Below are positions 1,623-27,196 of a stretch of 31,021 bases of DNA, piece by piece. Position numbers and translations under genes: made by a program. The stretch lies in IMG/VR virus record IMGVR_UViG_3300008217_001901, positions 1 through 31,021 of that record; one strand, given 5' to 3'. This stretch comes from a virus. Under the pieces are notes generated by a model. That model saw only the letters and a program-made list of their open reading frames with translations, was not told the origin of the DNA and did no database searches. Each line of letters starts with the position of its first letter. Positions within the stretch are counted from its first letter, which is position 1.

Positions 1623-1703
1623 GGTTTGTCTTTTCCAAACTTTCCCGCTATTAATGTCGTAGTCTGGCGCTTTTGCAGACCGAGTGAAAAAAGGAGAACA
1701 ACT

Positions 1704-2942
1704 ATGTTACACGTTCAATTCAATAGACGCGACTTCATGAAGGTTGGAGCAGTCGGTGCTGGACTTTCCTCAGTGGGGTTGTCGGACGCGCACGCTGATA
1801 CCATGCCAGCCAATGAAAAGTCGGTGGTGTGGCTATGGCTCGGTGGTGGAGCAACACACATCGAAACATTCGATCCGAAACCTATGGCTCCAGAAGGAGT
1901 ACGGTCTACGACAGGCTCAATTATGACCAATGGTGATTTTCTCCTTGGTGGGAACTTCATTAAAATGGCAAGCAGGGGAGACAAGATCGCGGTAGTCAGG
2001 TCGTTTGCCCACAGAAACTCTAGTCACAGAACTGGTACTCACTGGGTGATGACAGGCCACAACTCTACCGACAATACGCCCCAATCAATGCAGCAAGAGC
2101 CATCCTATGGTTCTATCATGTCTTCCGTCTATGGAGCTAATCATCCAGTTAACGGAATGCCAACATACGTCAAAGTTAATGGGATAAGTTTTGACGGGGC
2201 CGCTTGGTTAGGCGGAAAGTATAAACCCTACGAATCTAGCGGCGAGGGAGTAGACAATCTTAAATCTAGGATTGAAAATAACAGATTTCTCGAACGCCGT
2301 GATTTGGTAAAGGGCTTTGATAAACTAAAGCTATCCAACGACCTTGAACTCTGGGGAGATCTTCGCAAGCAGTCCTATGGTCTTATTCTTGGCAATGCAA
2401 GTGAAGCCTTCGACCTTAAAAAGGAGCCAGAGGCTAGTCGCAACAAGTACGGCAAGGGGCTTGGAGAGCAAATGCTTCTCGCTCGTCGGTTAGTAGAAAA
2501 CGGGACAAAGTTTGTCACCCTCCACTACGGCGGCTGGGACATGCACGGAAACATAGCGAAGTCCCTTAACGGAAAAATGCCCACGTTAGATCACGCCTTG
2601 TCTACATTTATTGATGACCTTCACGAAAAAGGTATGAGCAAGAATGTTCTGCTAGTGGTAACGGGAGAGTTCGGTCGGACCTATCGTGTTAACAAAAATG
2701 CTGGACGCGACCACTGGCCGCAACTCAGCCCTCTGATGTTCAGTGGTGGGGACTTTGACATGGGCAGGGTCATTGGAGAGTCCACAGCGAAGGCTGAGAC
2801 GCCCAAGAGCGATCCTCTGGGACCAAAGGATGTCACGGCGACACTATTTGCCCACTTCGGAATCGACCCACAGACACAGAAGATTGACTTCGCCGGTCGT
2901 CCTCGTTATTTTGTAGAAAGCGATGCAAAGGTAATCCTATGA
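1704..2942 (+). CDS. DUF1501 family protein with Tat signal
   Basis: A 412-residue protein. ATG 1704 is chosen because AAAGGAG at about 1690-1696 precedes it; a longer frame from TTG 1626 has no ribosome site. Residues 8-13 (RRDFMK) form a twin-arginine motif, followed by a Gly/Ala/Ser-rich hydrophobic stretch and a probable AHA cleavage site near residue 31. The mature part shows DUF1501 hallmarks: VVWLWLGGGATHIETFDPKP, the SFAHRNSSHRTGTHWVMTG region, a GGWDMHGN block and GEFGRT...GRDHWP near the end. DUF1501 belongs to the alkaline-phosphatase/sulfatase-like fold group and its biochemical role is not established. It is common in Planctomycetes and very unusual in a phage. By my count 13 of 21 Arg codons are CGN, against 6 of 24 in the 5155 gene, which suggests recent transfer from a host. 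Its ATGA stop/start overlap couples it to the Fe-S carrier gene. Confidence 0.9.
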   Translation: MLHVQFNRRDFMKVGAVGAGLSSVGLSDAHADTMPANEKSVVWLWLGGGATHIETFDPKPMAPEGVRSTTGSIMTNGDFLLGGNFIKMASRGDKIAVVRSFAHRNSSHRTGTHWVMTGHNSTDNTPQSMQQEPSYGSIMSSVYGANHPVNGMPTYVKVNGISFDGAAWLGGKYKPYESSGEGVDNLKSRIENNRFLERRDLVKGFDKLKLSNDLELWGDLRKQSYGLILGNASEAFDLKKEPEASRNKYGKGLGEQMLLARRLVENGTKFVTLHYGGWDMHGNIAKSLNGKMPTLDHALSTFIDDLHEKGMSKNVLLVVTGEFGRTYRVNKNAGRDHWPQLSPLMFSGGDFDMGRVIGESTAKAETPKSDPLGPKDVTATLFAHFGIDPQTQKIDFAGRPRYFVESDAKVIL

Positions 2943-3262
2943 TAACATTTACCGAGGCCGCGTTAGAAAAAGTTGAAGAGTTTGGTAAAGATCATCCAAC
3001 CGCAGTTTTACGCATAGGCGTTGTGGGTGGTGGATGCAGCGGCTTTGAATATAAGATGGGTTTCATTGAAGAAGAAGAAGTTGATGATACTTTTTCTAAA
3101 TACAAACAAAAAGATGTTTCGTTTGTTGTAGATAAAAAGGGTGAGCCATTTATTGACGGCTGCACGGTTGACTGGATTGAAAACTTAATGCAAAGAGGCT
3201 TTCAGTTTGATAATCCTAACGCAACAGGAAGCTGTGGGTGCAATAAGAGCTTTAGCGTATGA
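2939..3262 (+). CDS. A-type iron-sulfur cluster carrier (IscA/HesB/ErpA family)
   Basis: The 107-residue length is typical for the family. The three conserved cysteines are present: Cys33 in GGGCSGFEYKMGF, and Cys99 and Cys101 in GSCGCNKSF at the C-terminus. A-type carriers accept Fe-S clusters from scaffold proteins and pass them to apo-enzymes. HesB/IscA-like genes are known in cyanophages and other marine phages. The start overlaps the DUF1501 stop (ATGA), and the stop overlaps the next start the same way, so the three genes are probably translated together. The nearby radical SAM protein, which needs a 4Fe-4S cluster, is a possible client; that link is inference. Confidence 0.92.
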   Translation: MITFTEAALEKVEEFGKDHPTAVLRIGVVGGGCSGFEYKMGFIEEEEVDDTFSKYKQKDVSFVVDKKGEPFIDGCTVDWIENLMQRGFQFDNPNATGSCGCNKSFSV

Positions 3263-4876: not shown

Positions 4877-5168
4877 TAACTGGCATCCAATGAAATCAGA
4901 CAAGCCAGAGGACGAATTAGTCTACACCGATTGTAGATATCCTTGGCATACCGTTCAAATATTAGCTGATGGTCAAGTTAGACCATGTTGCTGGAGCGCG
5001 GGGTCTCTAGGCAATCTACACGATAGCGATCTGGAAGAAATATGGGACGGAGCAAGAATTAAGGATTTGAGAAAGTGCATTCTAAATGACAAGATACACG
5101 AAATATGTGATGGGTCACCCTGTATATATGTTCAAAACGAGATGAGAAGAAGAGATGAACTATCTTAA
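4833..5168 (+). CDS. SPASM-domain fragment, C-terminal half of the radical SAM protein
   Basis: This frame holds the cysteine-rich end of a radical SAM-SPASM protein: DCRYPWHTVQI, ADGQVRPCCW, then GNLHDSDLEEIWDG and further cysteines in a C-x5-C-type tail, ligands for an auxiliary Fe-S cluster. It has no radical SAM motif and no good ribosome site before ATG 4833 or ATG 4890. It is therefore unlikely to be an independent gene and is best read as the continuation of the 4136 frame through a +1 shift somewhere between 4815 and 4876. The window for the shift contains an A6 run (4841-4846) and a CTC-TGA-T sequence at 4871. The stop overlaps the next start by about 14 bases, as in an intact operon. 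Confidence 0.7.
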   Translation: MPTKKDGSSLDTNSDNWHPMKSDKPEDELVYTDCRYPWHTVQILADGQVRPCCWSAGSLGNLHDSDLEEIWDGARIKDLRKCILNDKIHEICDGSPCIYVQNEMRRRDELS

Positions 5169-6669
5169 TAACGAGCGGTGGGAACAAGTTGGTTTACGCA
5201 CCAACGATATAGAGTTGAAAGAAGCTATGCTGACTGGACACGGCGAGGCAAAAGTTCTACCCCACACCGAGCTAGGGTTAATAGACGACAAAGGCAGGAA
5301 ATACAAAATATTGGATTTTGGCTGCGGAATAGGAAGAAATTTTAAGTATCTAAAAGGGTTCAGTACGGAGCTTCATGGTTATGATTTGGACCCCATTGTG
5401 GATAGATGTGAAGAATTGTGCGAAGAGGACATTGATCTGTTAACGAGCGATTGGTCTGAAGTTCAGCAAAACAAATACGACATGATTGTAGCCTCATTTG
5501 TATTTCAGACCATGGACAGTGCTGAAATAATCAAACAGTTCCTTGAAGACATGTCTAAGATTACTTCTATTTTATATGTAACTACCAGATGTTACATTGA
5601 CGGTCCCGATCATGAAAATGTTACCAAAATAATACTAGACGATCCTAACTTTGAAGTAGTGATAGAAGATTGCAATATAGATCAATTTGCAGCAGAAGAA
5701 TATCCAAGCGAAGCGCACTCCCAGTTTATTTGCAGGTCTGCAAATGAAACAAGATCAATCAATGAAATGGTTGACCTTAATTTCAAAACTCATTTCGACC
5801 ACAACGATCAGTTCTTCTATCGATCTTATGCTGACGCAATCAAAGACGTAAAAGATTGGTGCAACCATCTTCCAGAAGTAAGCGCTGTTTGCGGAATACC
5901 GCGAAGCGGGTCGTTTCTAGCGTCAGTCATTTCTCAATATCGCAACATACCACTTGTCACTATGGATGGACTCCTTAATGACAATTTCTGTTGGAGGCCA
6001 AGTGTGTCTAGAGCAATTTCTAAACCCCACGGCCCTATACTTGTCGTGGACGACACATCTTGGAGCGGTTCTTCCCTTGAGAGAACTAAAGCCTATCTAA
6101 AAAACAAAGGAGAATTTATTTACGGATGCTTGTATATAAACGAAGATAGAGAGGATGAAGTTGATCACTTCTATGGTATTTTCCCATCAGTTTTCCATAC
6201 GTGCGAGTGGAGTCTTCTAAGAGACCATCAATCTAGGGCGTATCTTTGCGATTTGGACGGCGTTTTTTGTCCAGATCACGACAGAAGTACAAAAGATGGA
6301 AGTCTGGAATACATAGAGCATTTAAAAACAGTCAAACCAACGGTTTATATCCCCCAATACCCCTTGATGAAAATTGTAACTGCCAGACTAGAAAAATATA
6401 GAGATATCACCGAGGACTGGTTGGCGATACACAAGATTAGATATAAGCAGCTAGTTATGAGTCCATATGACTCTGAAGAAGAAAGATTTGCAAAAGATGG
6501 GTTCGGTAAGTGGAAGGCAGATATTTACGGACGTTGCCCAGAAGCAGCCCTTTTTATAGAGAGCGAACACGCCCAAGCTGTTGAGATACATAAAGCAACA
6601 GAGAGACCTGTATTTTGCATGGATACAATGACGATGTTTGGAGGTGGGGGAATAGATGTCCCTTATTGA
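5155..6669 (+). CDS. Methyltransferase - phosphoribosyltransferase - HAD phosphatase fusion
   Basis: A 504-residue protein with three enzyme domains in one chain. Residues about 1-190 are a SAM-dependent methyltransferase: motif I ILDFGCGIGRN at 52-62 and an acidic strand end YDLDP at 76-80. Residues about 215-340 are a type I phosphoribosyltransferase fold: CGIPRSGSFLA at 246-256 and the PRPP loop ILVVDDTSWSGSS at 295-307. Residues about 360-500 are a HAD-type domain: CDLDGVF with Asp366 and Asp368, a KIVTARLEKY motif II region at about 406-415, and an ALFIESE acidic motif near 465. PRTase-HAD pairs are known in nucleotide and capsule-sugar contexts; the added N-terminal methyltransferase is unusual to my knowledge. 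The three active-site signatures all look intact. The reaction is unknown, but the neighbours suggest building or modifying a sugar or nucleotide derivative. Confidence 0.8.
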   Translation: MNYLNNERWEQVGLRTNDIELKEAMLTGHGEAKVLPHTELGLIDDKGRKYKILDFGCGIGRNFKYLKGFSTELHGYDLDPIVDRCEELCEEDIDLLTSDWSEVQQNKYDMIVASFVFQTMDSAEIIKQFLEDMSKITSILYVTTRCYIDGPDHENVTKIILDDPNFEVVIEDCNIDQFAAEEYPSEAHSQFICRSANETRSINEMVDLNFKTHFDHNDQFFYRSYADAIKDVKDWCNHLPEVSAVCGIPRSGSFLASVISQYRNIPLVTMDGLLNDNFCWRPSVSRAISKPHGPILVVDDTSWSGSSLERTKAYLKNKGEFIYGCLYINEDREDEVDHFYGIFPSVFHTCEWSLLRDHQSRAYLCDLDGVFCPDHDRSTKDGSLEYIEHLKTVKPTVYIPQYPLMKIVTARLEKYRDITEDWLAIHKIRYKQLVMSPYDSEEERFAKDGFGKWKADIYGRCPEAALFIESEHAQAVEIHKATERPVFCMDTMTMFGGGGIDVPY

Positions 6670-7624
6670 TAAATCAGACATAATTAATTGCAAGTCTTGG
6701 ATGGATATAGCAGACTGCAATTATGAATACGATTATCCGGGGGTGGATGATATCCCTCCATCAGGCATAGTTTATTGTAACATTGAACATATCACCAAGT
6801 TTTTTGATAAATGTAAAAGAACTCACAATAAATACGTAGTAGTTAGCGGGTTCAGCGACTTTGGGCTAGCATATCAAAAAGAACATCCAGTGGCTATGGA
6901 TATGTTAAAGTGGATACCGTTTATAGAGTCGGACATACCAACTATAGGATACAATGCTCTTAAAATTGGCCCAAGATGTGATGTTGAAAAATGTAACATA
7001 GAAGATAGATATTCTATCAAATGTCATTCCTTTACAATGGAGACTTTCAACAACATACCTGACAATATCATCAGGTGGTTTGTAGTCAATCCTCTCTTAA
7101 TGAAAAACAATCTCCAAGGTATACCGATTGGGGTTGGCAAAGACGCCGCTGACGCTATATCAAATACCCCAGATCTCGTAAAAACGGATTGGCTCTATGT
7201 CAATTGGCAAAACTATACTACAGACAGAATGCACATCAAGAAATTTTTCATCAACAACGATTGGGACTGGGTGACTGCTCACGAAAATCCAGATGTCCCA
7301 TACGAAGAATACCTGTCAGAATTGTCTCGACACAGATTTGTGGCCTGTCCTCCCGGTAACGGGGTTGACTGCTACAGGATTTTAGAGTCTATTTACTTGG
7401 GAGCCATACCGATTGTCGAAGACAGCCCCACGATGAGATATTTGGACGGTCTACCAATACTGAAAATTAGAAGCTGGGGAGTCATAAACTCCCTAGACTG
7501 GCTACAGCGGAAGTATGATGAAATTATGTCCCGTGTGCCACCTGTGTCCCCCACTCTTGACAAGGCAAAATTATCATATTGGACTAAAATAATAAAAAGG
7601 GCTTTCTATGAACACTTTTCCTAA
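6656..7624 (+). CDS. Exostosin/GT47-like glycosyltransferase
   Basis: A 322-residue protein that starts 14 bases inside the preceding gene. The C-terminal half has the pattern of exostosin-type GT-B enzymes: EEYLSELSRHRFVACPPG, then GVDCYRILESIYLGAIPIVE and a following SPTMRYLDGLP (residues about 217-267). In that family this region binds the nucleotide-sugar donor. The N-terminal half is divergent and contains several cysteines. No signal peptide is present, so it should act in the host cytoplasm. Donor and acceptor are unknown. Confidence 0.72.
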   Translation: MSLIDKSDIINCKSWMDIADCNYEYDYPGVDDIPPSGIVYCNIEHITKFFDKCKRTHNKYVVVSGFSDFGLAYQKEHPVAMDMLKWIPFIESDIPTIGYNALKIGPRCDVEKCNIEDRYSIKCHSFTMETFNNIPDNIIRWFVVNPLLMKNNLQGIPIGVGKDAADAISNTPDLVKTDWLYVNWQNYTTDRMHIKKFFINNDWDWVTAHENPDVPYEEYLSELSRHRFVACPPGNGVDCYRILESIYLGAIPIVEDSPTMRYLDGLPILKIRSWGVINSLDWLQRKYDEIMSRVPPVSPTLDKAKLSYWTKIIKRAFYEHFS

Positions 7625-14406: not shown

Positions 14407-16377
14407 ATGAATAAATTTCTATGCGCGGCTACGCTTTTCTTAGCTTTAATTCTAAGCAGCCGACCGGCTTCAGCACAGGCTCTAACTATTGACCAAGCAC
14501 TAGACGCGGTGTGTAGAGTTAATACTAACGGGGCCAGAGGCAGCGGAACTGTATTTCAAGAAGATGAAGAAAACTACTACGTACTGACCAACGGTCATGT
14601 AATTGGAAGAGCCAAGAGAGGCCACCTAGAGTTCTTTCAAGATGGCTACAAGTCTGCTATGATTCCTTTTAAAACTGAATACGTAGCTTACGAAGAAGGC
14701 ACTGCTCTTGACCTAGCCATAGTCTCAGTAAAAAAGAAATATTTTGGCCGGTATCCCCCGAGAGTAATTCCCCTAGCCCCCAAGGGTACGAAAATTGGGG
14801 CGAACGATCTCGTTATGGCTGGCGGGTGTCCTTCTGCTCAATGGGCTTGCGCTTGGAAAGGCAGAGTCCTGAGAAATGCGGGGGCTGTTGTTAGCTTTAA
14901 CGCCGCCCCTATTGGCGGTCAATCAGGTAGTGGAGTTCTCATTCTTATCAAAGACGATAAGGGAGAGATTCACACTAGGCTGGGTATCTTGCTAGCTTGG
15001 AGAGTTGGAGATGGTGCTTGGACAGATGATGGTCCAGATGATTATGGCGCTGGCCTATCCCTAAAGCAGATTTATGAGATCATTGAGGGTAATGGTAAGG
15101 GACACCCCATTGAAACTTCTTACAACTTGGTGTACGAAGAAAAAGAAGAGGTGAAAAATACTAAGTCCGCAGAGGAAAGATTGCAGCGGGTTTGTCCACA
15201 CTGCCAACGCAAAATTAAGGACCACGTCGTTATTCCCCATAAGGGGGGTCTCAGAAAAACCGACAAGGGCGAGTTCATGTTTTGCCCCGAACTAAAGTTC
15301 CCTGATGGCGGTATTGCAGATACGGCAAAATATTATGGGGGCATAAGAGTTGGCGAGCTATACGAAGGAAACGGTCTGTTTCCTTGGTGTCCTTGGGATA
15401 GATGTCCCCCGCCCAATCAACCACCTGTACTACCTCCCTCTAACCCAAATCCGCCAGACGGCGGCGATTTTAATGGCTGGCCCGGTAGACCAGATCCCGG
15501 TGGTCCCGTTGATCCACCTATCGATTTTGAAAAAGAGCGCCAAGAGTATCTTGACAAGATTACGGAGCTTAAAGAAAAACTAACCAATCTTGAGTCTCTT
15601 TCCGAAAGCCTAAAAGCTGAGCTTGCAGGGGTAAGTGGCAATCTATCAAGTTCTAATAATGAAATTAATGGCCTAAAAGAATTATTAGGAACTGTCGAAG
15701 GGCAGAAAGACTCTCTTAAATCTAGAATAGATCAGCTACTAGGTGTTGTTAAAGATAAAGACGACAAAATTTCTGATCTTGCAGAAAATGGAGTTCACTA
15801 TCTAGATGGGTCTACTGGTGGTAATGGCAACGCGGTTGAAAACGTTAGTTTTACCCTTGGTGGAGCCAGCTTGGGTATGTTAGCCCTTAAGTACGGAGTG
15901 CCATTCTTACTTAGGCGCAGAAGAAGAAAAAAGAAAAAAGAGGATGACGAAAACGATGATGATGGGTATGATATTGGTAGGGAGCCTCTCCCCGATGGAG
16001 GATGTGATGATTGCGTACACAAGCATGTGCATGAACACCAACATCATGGTTTGCCAGACTGTCCACCAAACACAAGGCCAAACCACCCAGACGAGTATGT
16101 AATGGATCGCAGAGATCTTCCTAGAGGCAGAAGCGTTGACGAGTTACCTAATGATTTTCTCCCTTATGGTTTTAAGGCCAATCCAGTATCGTCACCCGGA
16201 CTAGCACCACAATTACCACATGTACCCTTTGGTTCACGGAAGTCTATTGGCCCAGAGCAGATTATGACTACTCTGGGAGAATTGGTTAATGAGTACGGAG
16301 ACGACCACACTATGACCGCTTTTCAAATTGACACCTTATTACGTCAAAGACTTAAGAAAAAATACAATATCGAATAA
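14407..16377 (+). CDS. Exported trypsin-like serine protease with coiled coil and C-terminal membrane anchor
   Basis: A 656-residue multidomain protein. Residues 1-24 are a Sec signal peptide ending in ASAQA. Residues about 28-232 are a trypsin/HtrA-like protease with His64 (TNGHVI), Asp102 (LDLAIV) and Ser173 (GGQSGSG). Next come CPHC at 263-266 and further cysteines near 293-333, possibly a zinc or disulfide module, then a Pro/Gly-rich linker at about 334-371. A coiled coil spans about 373-460. A hydrophobic span at about 481-502 runs into a basic block (RRRRRKKKK), and an acidic, His-rich cytoplasmic tail follows (VHKHVHEHQHH at about 537-547). The layout suggests a membrane-tethered periplasmic protease. 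Substrate is unknown; envelope proteins or virion maturation are options. It is very large and unusual for a phage protease. Confidence 0.85.
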   Translation: MNKFLCAATLFLALILSSRPASAQALTIDQALDAVCRVNTNGARGSGTVFQEDEENYYVLTNGHVIGRAKRGHLEFFQDGYKSAMIPFKTEYVAYEEGTALDLAIVSVKKKYFGRYPPRVIPLAPKGTKIGANDLVMAGGCPSAQWACAWKGRVLRNAGAVVSFNAAPIGGQSGSGVLILIKDDKGEIHTRLGILLAWRVGDGAWTDDGPDDYGAGLSLKQIYEIIEGNGKGHPIETSYNLVYEEKEEVKNTKSAEERLQRVCPHCQRKIKDHVVIPHKGGLRKTDKGEFMFCPELKFPDGGIADTAKYYGGIRVGELYEGNGLFPWCPWDRCPPPNQPPVLPPSNPNPPDGGDFNGWPGRPDPGGPVDPPIDFEKERQEYLDKITELKEKLTNLESLSESLKAELAGVSGNLSSSNNEINGLKELLGTVEGQKDSLKSRIDQLLGVVKDKDDKISDLAENGVHYLDGSTGGNGNAVENVSFTLGGASLGMLALKYGVPFLLRRRRRKKKKEDDENDDDGYDIGREPLPDGGCDDCVHKHVHEHQHHGLPDCPPNTRPNHPDEYVMDRRDLPRGRSVDELPNDFLPYGFKANPVSSPGLAPQLPHVPFGSRKSIGPEQIMTTLGELVNEYGDDHTMTAFQIDTLLRQRLKKKYNIE

Positions 16378-17220: not shown

Positions 17221-18159
17221 ATGATGAAGGCTATGTGGATCGCTACGCTAGTTGTATCCATGTTTGTTACAACTGCAAACGCACAGGACAATGTACTCTA
17301 TCAACATCTGCAAGACGTTTCCGTCACCGTAAAGGCGGCGGGTGGAGAAGGCTCCGGTGTTATTGTAACGAGGGAGGTCGAAACTTCTCCAAACGTCAAG
17401 AAGAAGGTTAATTTTGTTTGGACTGCGGCCCACGTTGTAGACAGCCTTAGATCGGTTAGAGTAGTCATCAAAAATGGAAAGCCTCAAACAATTGTCGAGT
17501 TTAAGGACGCTCAAATTGTTCAGGAGCTAGTTGAGAATGGCCGTCGAGTTGGCGAAATTAAAATGGAAGCCAAGGTCATTAAATACAGCGACTCCGAGAA
17601 TGGCGAAGACTTGGCTCTTCTAATGGTTAGAAAGAAGGGTTTTGTTGACAAGTCAGCCACCTTCTATAAGGCCGCAGGTAAGCCAGTAGCCATTGGCACA
17701 GAGCTTTACCATGTTGGCTCATTATTAGGCCAAACTGGCTCGAATTCGATGACGCGAGGAATTTGTTCTCAAGTCGGAAGAGTTCTTGACTTAGGCAACG
17801 GAAGCGGTGTAGTCTTCGATCAAACCACAGTGACGGCTTTTCCGGGGTCCAGTGGTGGTGGAGTATTCTTAAGCGAGCGGTCTGGTGATAATGCTGGACA
17901 ATACATGGGGATGCTTGTCCGTGGTGCTGGAGAAACCTTCAACTTGATCGTCCCCGTAAGACGAATGAGAACCTATGCGAAGAAAGAAAACGTTCTGTGG
18001 GCTATTGATACAGACGTTAAGGTTCCCTCTCTACAAGAAATGACATCTATGTCCACAGAAGGAACTGAAAGCTCGCCAACCAGAGGAACTAAGGCTACTA
18101 AGGACGCAGTTAAGTTTCCAGTGCTTCCTTTAATAAGAGAAGAGAATGAAAGCAATTAA
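17221..18159 (+). CDS. Exported trypsin-like serine protease
   Basis: A 312-residue protein with a Sec signal peptide (residues 1-21, ending TTANAQD). The protease domain has a complete triad: His71 in WTAAHVVD, Asp130 in GEDLALLMV and Ser211 in FPGSSGGGVF. GEGSGVIVT at about 43-50 is the usual first strand. The last 50 residues are a Ser/Thr-rich linker with no membrane span, so the mature enzyme is probably free in the periplasm or secreted. It is distinct from the larger protease at 14407 and shares only the fold and triad. AAGGAAGG 13 bases upstream supports the start. It may degrade envelope proteins late in infection or process exported phage proteins; neither is shown. Confidence 0.85.
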   Translation: MMKAMWIATLVVSMFVTTANAQDNVLYQHLQDVSVTVKAAGGEGSGVIVTREVETSPNVKKKVNFVWTAAHVVDSLRSVRVVIKNGKPQTIVEFKDAQIVQELVENGRRVGEIKMEAKVIKYSDSENGEDLALLMVRKKGFVDKSATFYKAAGKPVAIGTELYHVGSLLGQTGSNSMTRGICSQVGRVLDLGNGSGVVFDQTTVTAFPGSSGGGVFLSERSGDNAGQYMGMLVRGAGETFNLIVPVRRMRTYAKKENVLWAIDTDVKVPSLQEMTSMSTEGTESSPTRGTKATKDAVKFPVLPLIREENESN

Positions 18160-20587: not shown

Positions 20588-21061
20588 ATGGATAGAAGAG
20601 ATTTTATTAAAACGGGCATAGCCATTGCCGCAATCGTTCCTTTTATGGGTGAAGATGCTCAAGCTGCCGACGTACAAGTTTTTGTCAGAAATATAGAACA
20701 CACAATAGACACCAATAGACTTAACTTATCTTCTGGTTTGTATATCAATCAGTTCGTTCAGCCAAGACCAATGTGCTGGGTGTGGACCCCTTACGGTTGG
20801 ACTATTCAAGCCCAGCCAGTTTATTATGGTCACAATCTGAATTTTTATGGTCATCTAAACGGATATCGTCAATTAACACAAAGACGAGAAAACATTAAGC
20901 AAATCAATATTCATGACGCTGATTATATCTATATTTTAGAAGACGGGTCTATTAAAATTTATGACAGAAAAGCGAAAAGCGTCGAATCTAATTCTGTAAT
21001 TCCTAATTATGCTGCTGGTCTCGGGAGGATAGATGCTCACTACAGAAGAAGAACTAGGTGA
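20588..21061 (+). CDS. Small Tat-signal exported protein
   Basis: A 157-residue protein beginning MDRRDFIKTGIAIAAIVPF, a textbook twin-arginine signal (RRDFIK at residues 3-8) with a hydrophobic core and a likely AQA cleavage site near residue 26. The mature part is Tyr, Asn and Trp rich (WVWTPYGWTIQAQPVYYG) with beta-strand patterns and a later YIYILEDGSIKIYD hairpin. No enzyme motif or family is recognised. It starts three bases after the propeller gene. Tat export means it should fold in the cytoplasm before crossing. It is the second Tat substrate of the window. Confidence 0.7.
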   Translation: MDRRDFIKTGIAIAAIVPFMGEDAQAADVQVFVRNIEHTIDTNRLNLSSGLYINQFVQPRPMCWVWTPYGWTIQAQPVYYGHNLNFYGHLNGYRQLTQRRENIKQINIHDADYIYILEDGSIKIYDRKAKSVESNSVIPNYAAGLGRIDAHYRRRTR

Positions 21062-27099: not shown

Positions 27100-27173
27100 G
27101 CCCTCGTAGCTCAACAGGATAGAGCAACGGTCTTCTAAACCGTAGGTTACAGGTTCGAGTCCTGTCGAGGGTG
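27100..27173 (+). tRNA. tRNA-Arg (anticodon UCU)
   Basis: A 74-base cloverleaf with an acceptor stem of 7 bp (27100-27106 with 27166-27172, one G-U at the end), D stem GCTC/GAGC, anticodon stem ACGGT/ACCGT and loop CTTCTAA with anticodon TCT at 27134-27136. The T arm is ACAGG/CCTGT with loop TTCGAGT, and the discriminator base is G. CCA is not encoded. It reads AGA and AGG codons, which dominate Arg usage in most genes of this window. It directly abuts the phoH stop. Confidence 0.95.
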
Positions 27174-27196
27174 CGTGCATCCACGTCATCTGGACG

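Follow-up and report, generated by a model that had tools for sequence, protein, structure and literature searches.

A large group of ocean viruses carries one to four export-tagged copies of DUF1501. What surprises is where this known domain occurs, in a widespread set of phage genes with a near-universal export signal and, judging from the trees, a history of repeated capture. The copy at the centre of this analysis belongs to viral subfamily A and lies within a 31,021-nt stretch of viral DNA (IMG/VR record IMGVR_UViG_3300008217_001901, positions 1 to 31,021), hereafter called the window. We tentatively favour the reading, plausible if still short of probable, that this is an accessory gene of large marine tailed phages whose product would serve as an exported, hydrolase-like auxiliary protein in pelagic Planctomycetota hosts.

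The window encodes a full-length DUF1501 protein with a Tat signal

The 412-amino-acid product of positions 1704–2942 (+ strand) matched Pfam PF07394 (DUF1501) with an E-value of 2.6e-71. The alignment spans residues 39–411 of 412 and profile positions 2–386 of 390, and the score of 241.3 bits lies far above the curated cut-off of 27, making the protein a full-length member of the family. The start codon at 1704 is the conserved one, with M1, R8 and R9 invariant among 31 diverse viral homologues; a longer TTG start at 1626 lacks such conservation. Residues 1–31 (1704–1796, + strand) constitute a predicted Tat signal peptide with the motif NRRDFMKVG, the twin arginines being encoded at 1725–1730 (+ strand), and a cleavage-like site AHA/D. 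The protein scored above the cut-off of the Tat signal model TIGR01409 of NCBIfam (17.7 versus 16.7 bits) and slightly below that of the Pfam TAT_signal model (20.3 versus 22.7). By its sequence it thus carries a twin-arginine signal, and its export is predicted.

A preliminary description of this DNA had proposed a full-length DUF1501 gene with a Tat signal at this position, which PF07394 and TIGR01409 confirm. It had also guessed at a metabolic or envelope role and a planctomycete origin. Its further remark that a Tat-exported phage protein is unusual loses force for this lineage: the twin-arginine motif is present in 152 of the 153 viral DUF1501 ORFs described below, the lone exception being truncated by a contig end, and bacterial DUF1501 proteins also have Tat motifs (PMC5122149). 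This phage lineage would seem to invest heavily in Tat export.

No match to the focal protein was found in the PADLOC defence set or among the phage families of PHROG, and a GenBank collection of 50,697 phage records contained no match to either the protein or the window DNA. We consequently rejected a known defence protein and a known phage protein family as identities of the gene. A sequence search of solved structures likewise gave nothing meaningful.

DUF1501 genes and their paralogues are widespread among viruses

In a scan of IMG/VR with the focal protein, at least 114 loci encoded a relative, and 80 of these were retained. Identities were 47–87% over the whole query (at one locus, L044, the joined match continues through a break downstream). 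Together with the window, these 81 loci hold 153 DUF1501 ORFs, and two to four different paralogues are present in 43 of them; a separate scan detected paralogue C at 48 viral loci. When paralogues C and E were compared with the phage collection, only one weak partial match was obtained. Our literature search turned up no account of DUF1501 families in phages, and a 61-residue ORF of a Pseudomonas phage shows a weak DUF1501 match (PMC5418858). The best match in a viral structure library, UniProt A0A6J5M742 from an uncultured Caudovirales phage, is likewise a phage protein annotated as DUF1501, but it is distant (13% identity), falls on another branch and bears the family name as a database name only.

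Repeated acquisition from Planctomycetota

The closest bacterial relatives of the focal gene are nearly all from Planctomycetota, with a few from Verrucomicrobiota. Bacterial members of subfamily A in these two phyla resemble the viral A proteins in the full-length domain, the invariant residues and the Tat-type N-terminus, at 45–53% identity, whereas the viral proteins differ in forming a separate deep clade, in their shorter N-terminus and in the absence of PSD1 (see below) from the viruses. In a virus/bacteria tree of 189 rows, five virus–bacteria changes are needed and well-supported branches force all five, pointing to at least five acquisitions of DUF1501 from bacteria. The viral A copies form one clade (UFBoot/SH-aLRT 100/100, stem 0.92), and the focal clade appears to descend from an old single acquisition. 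The branches of paralogues B, C/D and E lie within marine Pirellulales or join them, with identities of 87% between C and a Pirellulaceae gene, 75% for E, and 70% between B and a Blastopirellula gene. These copies probably mark the hosts more recently than the old A copy does. The preliminary description had named nesting of phage homologues in a planctomycete clade as support for its reading; B, C/D and E lie inside or next to such a clade, and placement of the focal A copies inside the bacterial subfamily is weakly supported (86/50). Its more general claim that the gene points to Planctomycetota was borne out, both by the nearest bacterial relatives and by the sister paralogues. At 5643–6926 of locus L017, a further DUF1501 copy groups with another planctomycete branch (support 84) and would seem to stem from a separate acquisition.

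With these other paralogues placed within or next to the marine Pirellulales and identities reaching 87%, the hosts are most likely pelagic Planctomycetota of this order. The window's own sub-clade has the old A copy only, and its host would follow from that of its relatives through shared gene content. The host call is not airtight, since one viral contig (L085, VFHP01000013.1) has been binned into a SAR202 MAG; the genes that it shares with marine viral contigs are 100% identical to theirs, and it is probably mis-binned. In Verrucomicrobiota, DUF1501 genes belonging to subfamilies A and B also stand in tandem, three in a row in each of L144 and L150 and four in L148, a layout that resembles the viral cassettes. 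Verrucomicrobia were nevertheless set aside as hosts, given the position of paralogues B, C/D and E. Phylum-wide searches with the focal protein at E 1e-80 yielded the centre genomes alone, a draw that seems unrepresentative and was not used. If the host assignment is right, viral DUF1501 genes would be of practical use for recognising phages that infect pelagic planctomycetes.

Codon use had been taken in the preliminary description as a sign of a host-derived gene. The counts themselves were exact on recount, with CGN making up 13 of 21 Arg codons in the focal gene and 6 of 24 in the gene at 5155, compared with 113 of 430 in the whole window (Fisher p = 4.5e-4). The deduction did not survive, however. 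GC3 of DUF1501 exceeds that of the rest of its own locus in only 35 of 71 viral loci, across which the CGN share is 33% in DUF1501 and 27% elsewhere in the locus, and the probable major head gene of a 161-kb viral record, G399, has an equally high CGN share (16 of 25). Recent transfer was therefore rejected as a general reading of codon use, and we interpret the bias in the window as expression or chance. A phage tRNA-Arg with a TCT anticodon is present at 27100–27174 of the window and fits the AGR-rich Arg codons in its remainder.

Selection and a possible role outside the infected cell

The viral copies appear to be under strong purifying selection, with NG86 dN/dS values of 0.03–0.08 among close pairs of relatives (against the window itself, synonymous sites are saturated). 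The genomic hallmarks of an auxiliary metabolic gene, namely viral hallmark genes, host homologues and purifying selection, are all found on the window's relatives. The export tag, the at least five captures and the strong selection keeping the copies intact together suggest that these viruses use DUF1501 to act on the exterior of their host cell during infection. The protein would be made alongside DNA-replication and nucleotide genes, exported in its folded state via the host Tat pathway, and could then act in the host periplasm or on the host surface. A hydrolase-like action would be most likely given the alkaline-phosphatase-superfamily fold predicted below, on a target that might be an envelope ester or external organic matter. 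The benefit would resemble that of auxiliary metabolic genes, with nutrients or envelope building blocks kept flowing during infection. More broadly, repeated viral choice and strong selection single out a few DUF1501 subfamilies as probably important during growth.

A bolder version, which strikes us as somewhat unlikely, is that several Tat-exported DUF1501 proteins, each captured on its own from paralogue families of the host, form an envelope-takeover cassette that plugs into the host DUF1501/PSD1 surface machinery and redirects it. If true, this would offer a first handle on a very large and uncharacterised planctomycete system.

We consider it rather unlikely that the exported protein instead serves superinfection exclusion, altering or masking the phage receptor and so blocking related phages. 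The dN/dS range is unlike that of fast-evolving exclusion proteins, DUF1501 lies among replication genes in many loci, and no receptor is known, even though such a role would suit the repeated capture of divergent surface-type paralogues, their varying copy number, the accessory distribution of the gene and the presence in the window of other exported-looking proteins and of glycosyltransferases.

Predicted fold, candidate active site and missing partners

An AlphaFold2 model of the focal protein built from 124 sequences (pLDDT 82.8, superseding a first model with pLDDT 61) predicts an alpha/beta fold of the alkaline phosphatase superfamily. VIA-align Z scores were 19.4 for Xac NPP, 18.7–19.2 for ENPP6/7, 18.4 for PafA and 18.3 for choline sulfatase, and sulfatases and LtaS ranked at the top in Foldseek. 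The predicted likeness to NPP, sulfatases and PafA (Z 17–19) extends over ∼245–270 residues, and DUF1501 can be aligned with the sulfatases of the superfamily by C-terminal profile alignment. It differs from all of them in having no recognisable nucleophile motif, in E-F for D-H and in a sequence identity of 10–15%.

Residues H108, D279, H281, D296, D305, E322, R325, N330, R335, D336 and H337 are invariant or nearly so, and this conserved acid/His core is alike in viral and bacterial copies. D279 and H281, in the D279-M280-H281 motif (2538–2546, + strand; invariant in viral and bacterial homologues), are candidate metal ligands, and the invariant R335-D336-H337 (2706–2714, + strand) are candidate active-site residues. 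In a remote profile alignment, E322-F323 (2667–2672, + strand) falls where sulfatases have their D-H metal pair, and F323 is invariant in the 124 sequences. As far as this remote alignment reaches, DUF1501 does not have the canonical two-metal site that includes the D-H pair, and no motif-level match to a Ser, Thr or formylglycine nucleophile was found in the focal protein. Catalysis may therefore be absent, as the metal-pair His is Phe in the 124 aligned sequences and no nucleophile could be assigned. The E-F replacement appears to be a trait of the aligned DUF1501 proteins, bacterial and viral, and not a viral inactivation. We know of no DUF1501 protein with known activity.

A close known parallel to the role we favour may be cyanophage PhoA (with PstS), a phage alkaline phosphatase that is likewise host-derived, carried by a large marine tailed phage, of the alkaline phosphatase fold and probably exported (PMC3037559). 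DUF1501 differs in the absence of the D-H metal pair, in its up to four paralogues and in that no link to PstS was seen.

In bacteria, a PSD1/PSCyt2 cytochrome cluster protein is encoded near the A gene at 19 of 80 loci, about a quarter, and two Pirellulales genomes have more than 80 PSD1 genes each. PSD1 (PF07587) was not found in 17 viral records of 67–174 kb, which may be partial, and the DUF1501/PSD1 gene pair is accordingly incomplete there. With only the DUF1501 half carried, the viruses would need either to use host partners or to act alone. DUF1501 itself gave 47 to 97 matches per genome in the six bacterial genomes first tested, and with ∼95 or more in each of the three planctomycete genomes among them the family is strongly expanded in planctomycetes; the subfamily of paralogue C was present in all hosts tested and that of E in most. 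PSCyt and PSD genes have no known function, and some carry carbohydrate-binding modules (PMC5615132). DUF1501 modules have been linked to those PVC species that possess internal membranes and are described as without biochemical characterisation (PMC4452313).

Such numbers would accommodate a viral subunit, non-catalytic or altered, that displaces host DUF1501 on PSD1/PSCyt2 and redirects the machinery: the presumed partner is abundant in hosts and missing from the viral records, subfamilies C and E are there to be displaced, and a Phe stands in for the metal His. We nonetheless regard this as decidedly unlikely, since the viral copies keep the acid/His core in full and the Phe is found in bacterial members too.

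Carrier contigs are large tailed phages

The 17 viral records carry one to four DUF1501 genes each, and in six of them, 139–174 kb long, DUF1501 occurs together with a terminase above the cut-off. G399 is the record of locus L073, whose gene is closely related to that of the window. Besides DUF1501 it encodes a terminase and a head-structure protein, with a weak match to a major head protein and further matches to tail fibres, and we read a 2909-residue protein encoded there as the tape measure. The ends of G399 (L172 1–5000 and L170 13700–20000) have a higher GC content (0.52–0.59) and atypical codon use in the called ORFs; they are possibly strand-miscalled or foreign segments. Seven contigs of 32–136 kb recovered by terminase similarity do not contain DUF1501, so the gene is accessory, and we rejected a lineage-wide core gene.

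In G399, DUF1501 lies outside the structural block and on the opposite strand, and in many loci it is found between DnaB/primase/kinase/RecB-like genes upstream and PolIII/SSB-like genes downstream (named by eye). This setting among replication and metabolic genes, together with the Tat signal in essentially all copies, makes it very improbable that the protein travels in the virion, for example as an enzyme attacking the cell surface at entry, although a predicted sulfatase/phosphodiesterase-like fold and a codon use resembling that of the probable head gene of G399 would be compatible with it. The chance that the window is chimeric, with a bacterial fragment near 1623–3262 taken for phage, as the preliminary description had considered, is negligible: typical as DUF1501 is of planctomycete genomes, the gene order f25-f43-DUF1501-f23 is common to the independent contigs L002–L008 as far as each reaches, and it is refuted as well by the gene content of G399, the six records with terminase and the single deep viral clade.

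Genes flanking DUF1501 and other features of the window

Immediately downstream, an A-type Fe-S carrier gene (IscA/HesB-like; 2939–3262, + strand; PF01521, 1.8e-19) starts 4 bases before the end of DUF1501, and the two are probably co-transcribed. The three conserved Cys of the carrier are all kept in the proteins of the window and of the other viruses. This gene directly follows DUF1501 in 12 loci and occurs in other loci too. Upstream, a small gene of family f43 (1386–1622, + strand) immediately precedes DUF1501 in the window's sub-clade, in an order conserved in L002–L009. It adjoins a nucleoside 2-deoxyribosyltransferase-like gene of family f25 (777–1379, + strand) in the same conserved block, an assignment based on synteny and on a borderline match to PF05014 (3.7e-4, below the cut-off).

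Elsewhere in the window, the ORF at 20588–21061, which starts MDRRDFIKTGIAIAAIVPFMGEDAQAA, also has an N-terminus with an RR motif that looks Tat-like by eye; it had no match in Pfam, PHROG, NCBIfam or PADLOC, and no Tat model confirms the signal. Trypsin-like peptidases with signal-peptide-like starts are encoded at 14407–16377 and 17221–18159, and the family of the latter (f45) was seen in 11 loci, at times immediately 5′ of DUF1501.
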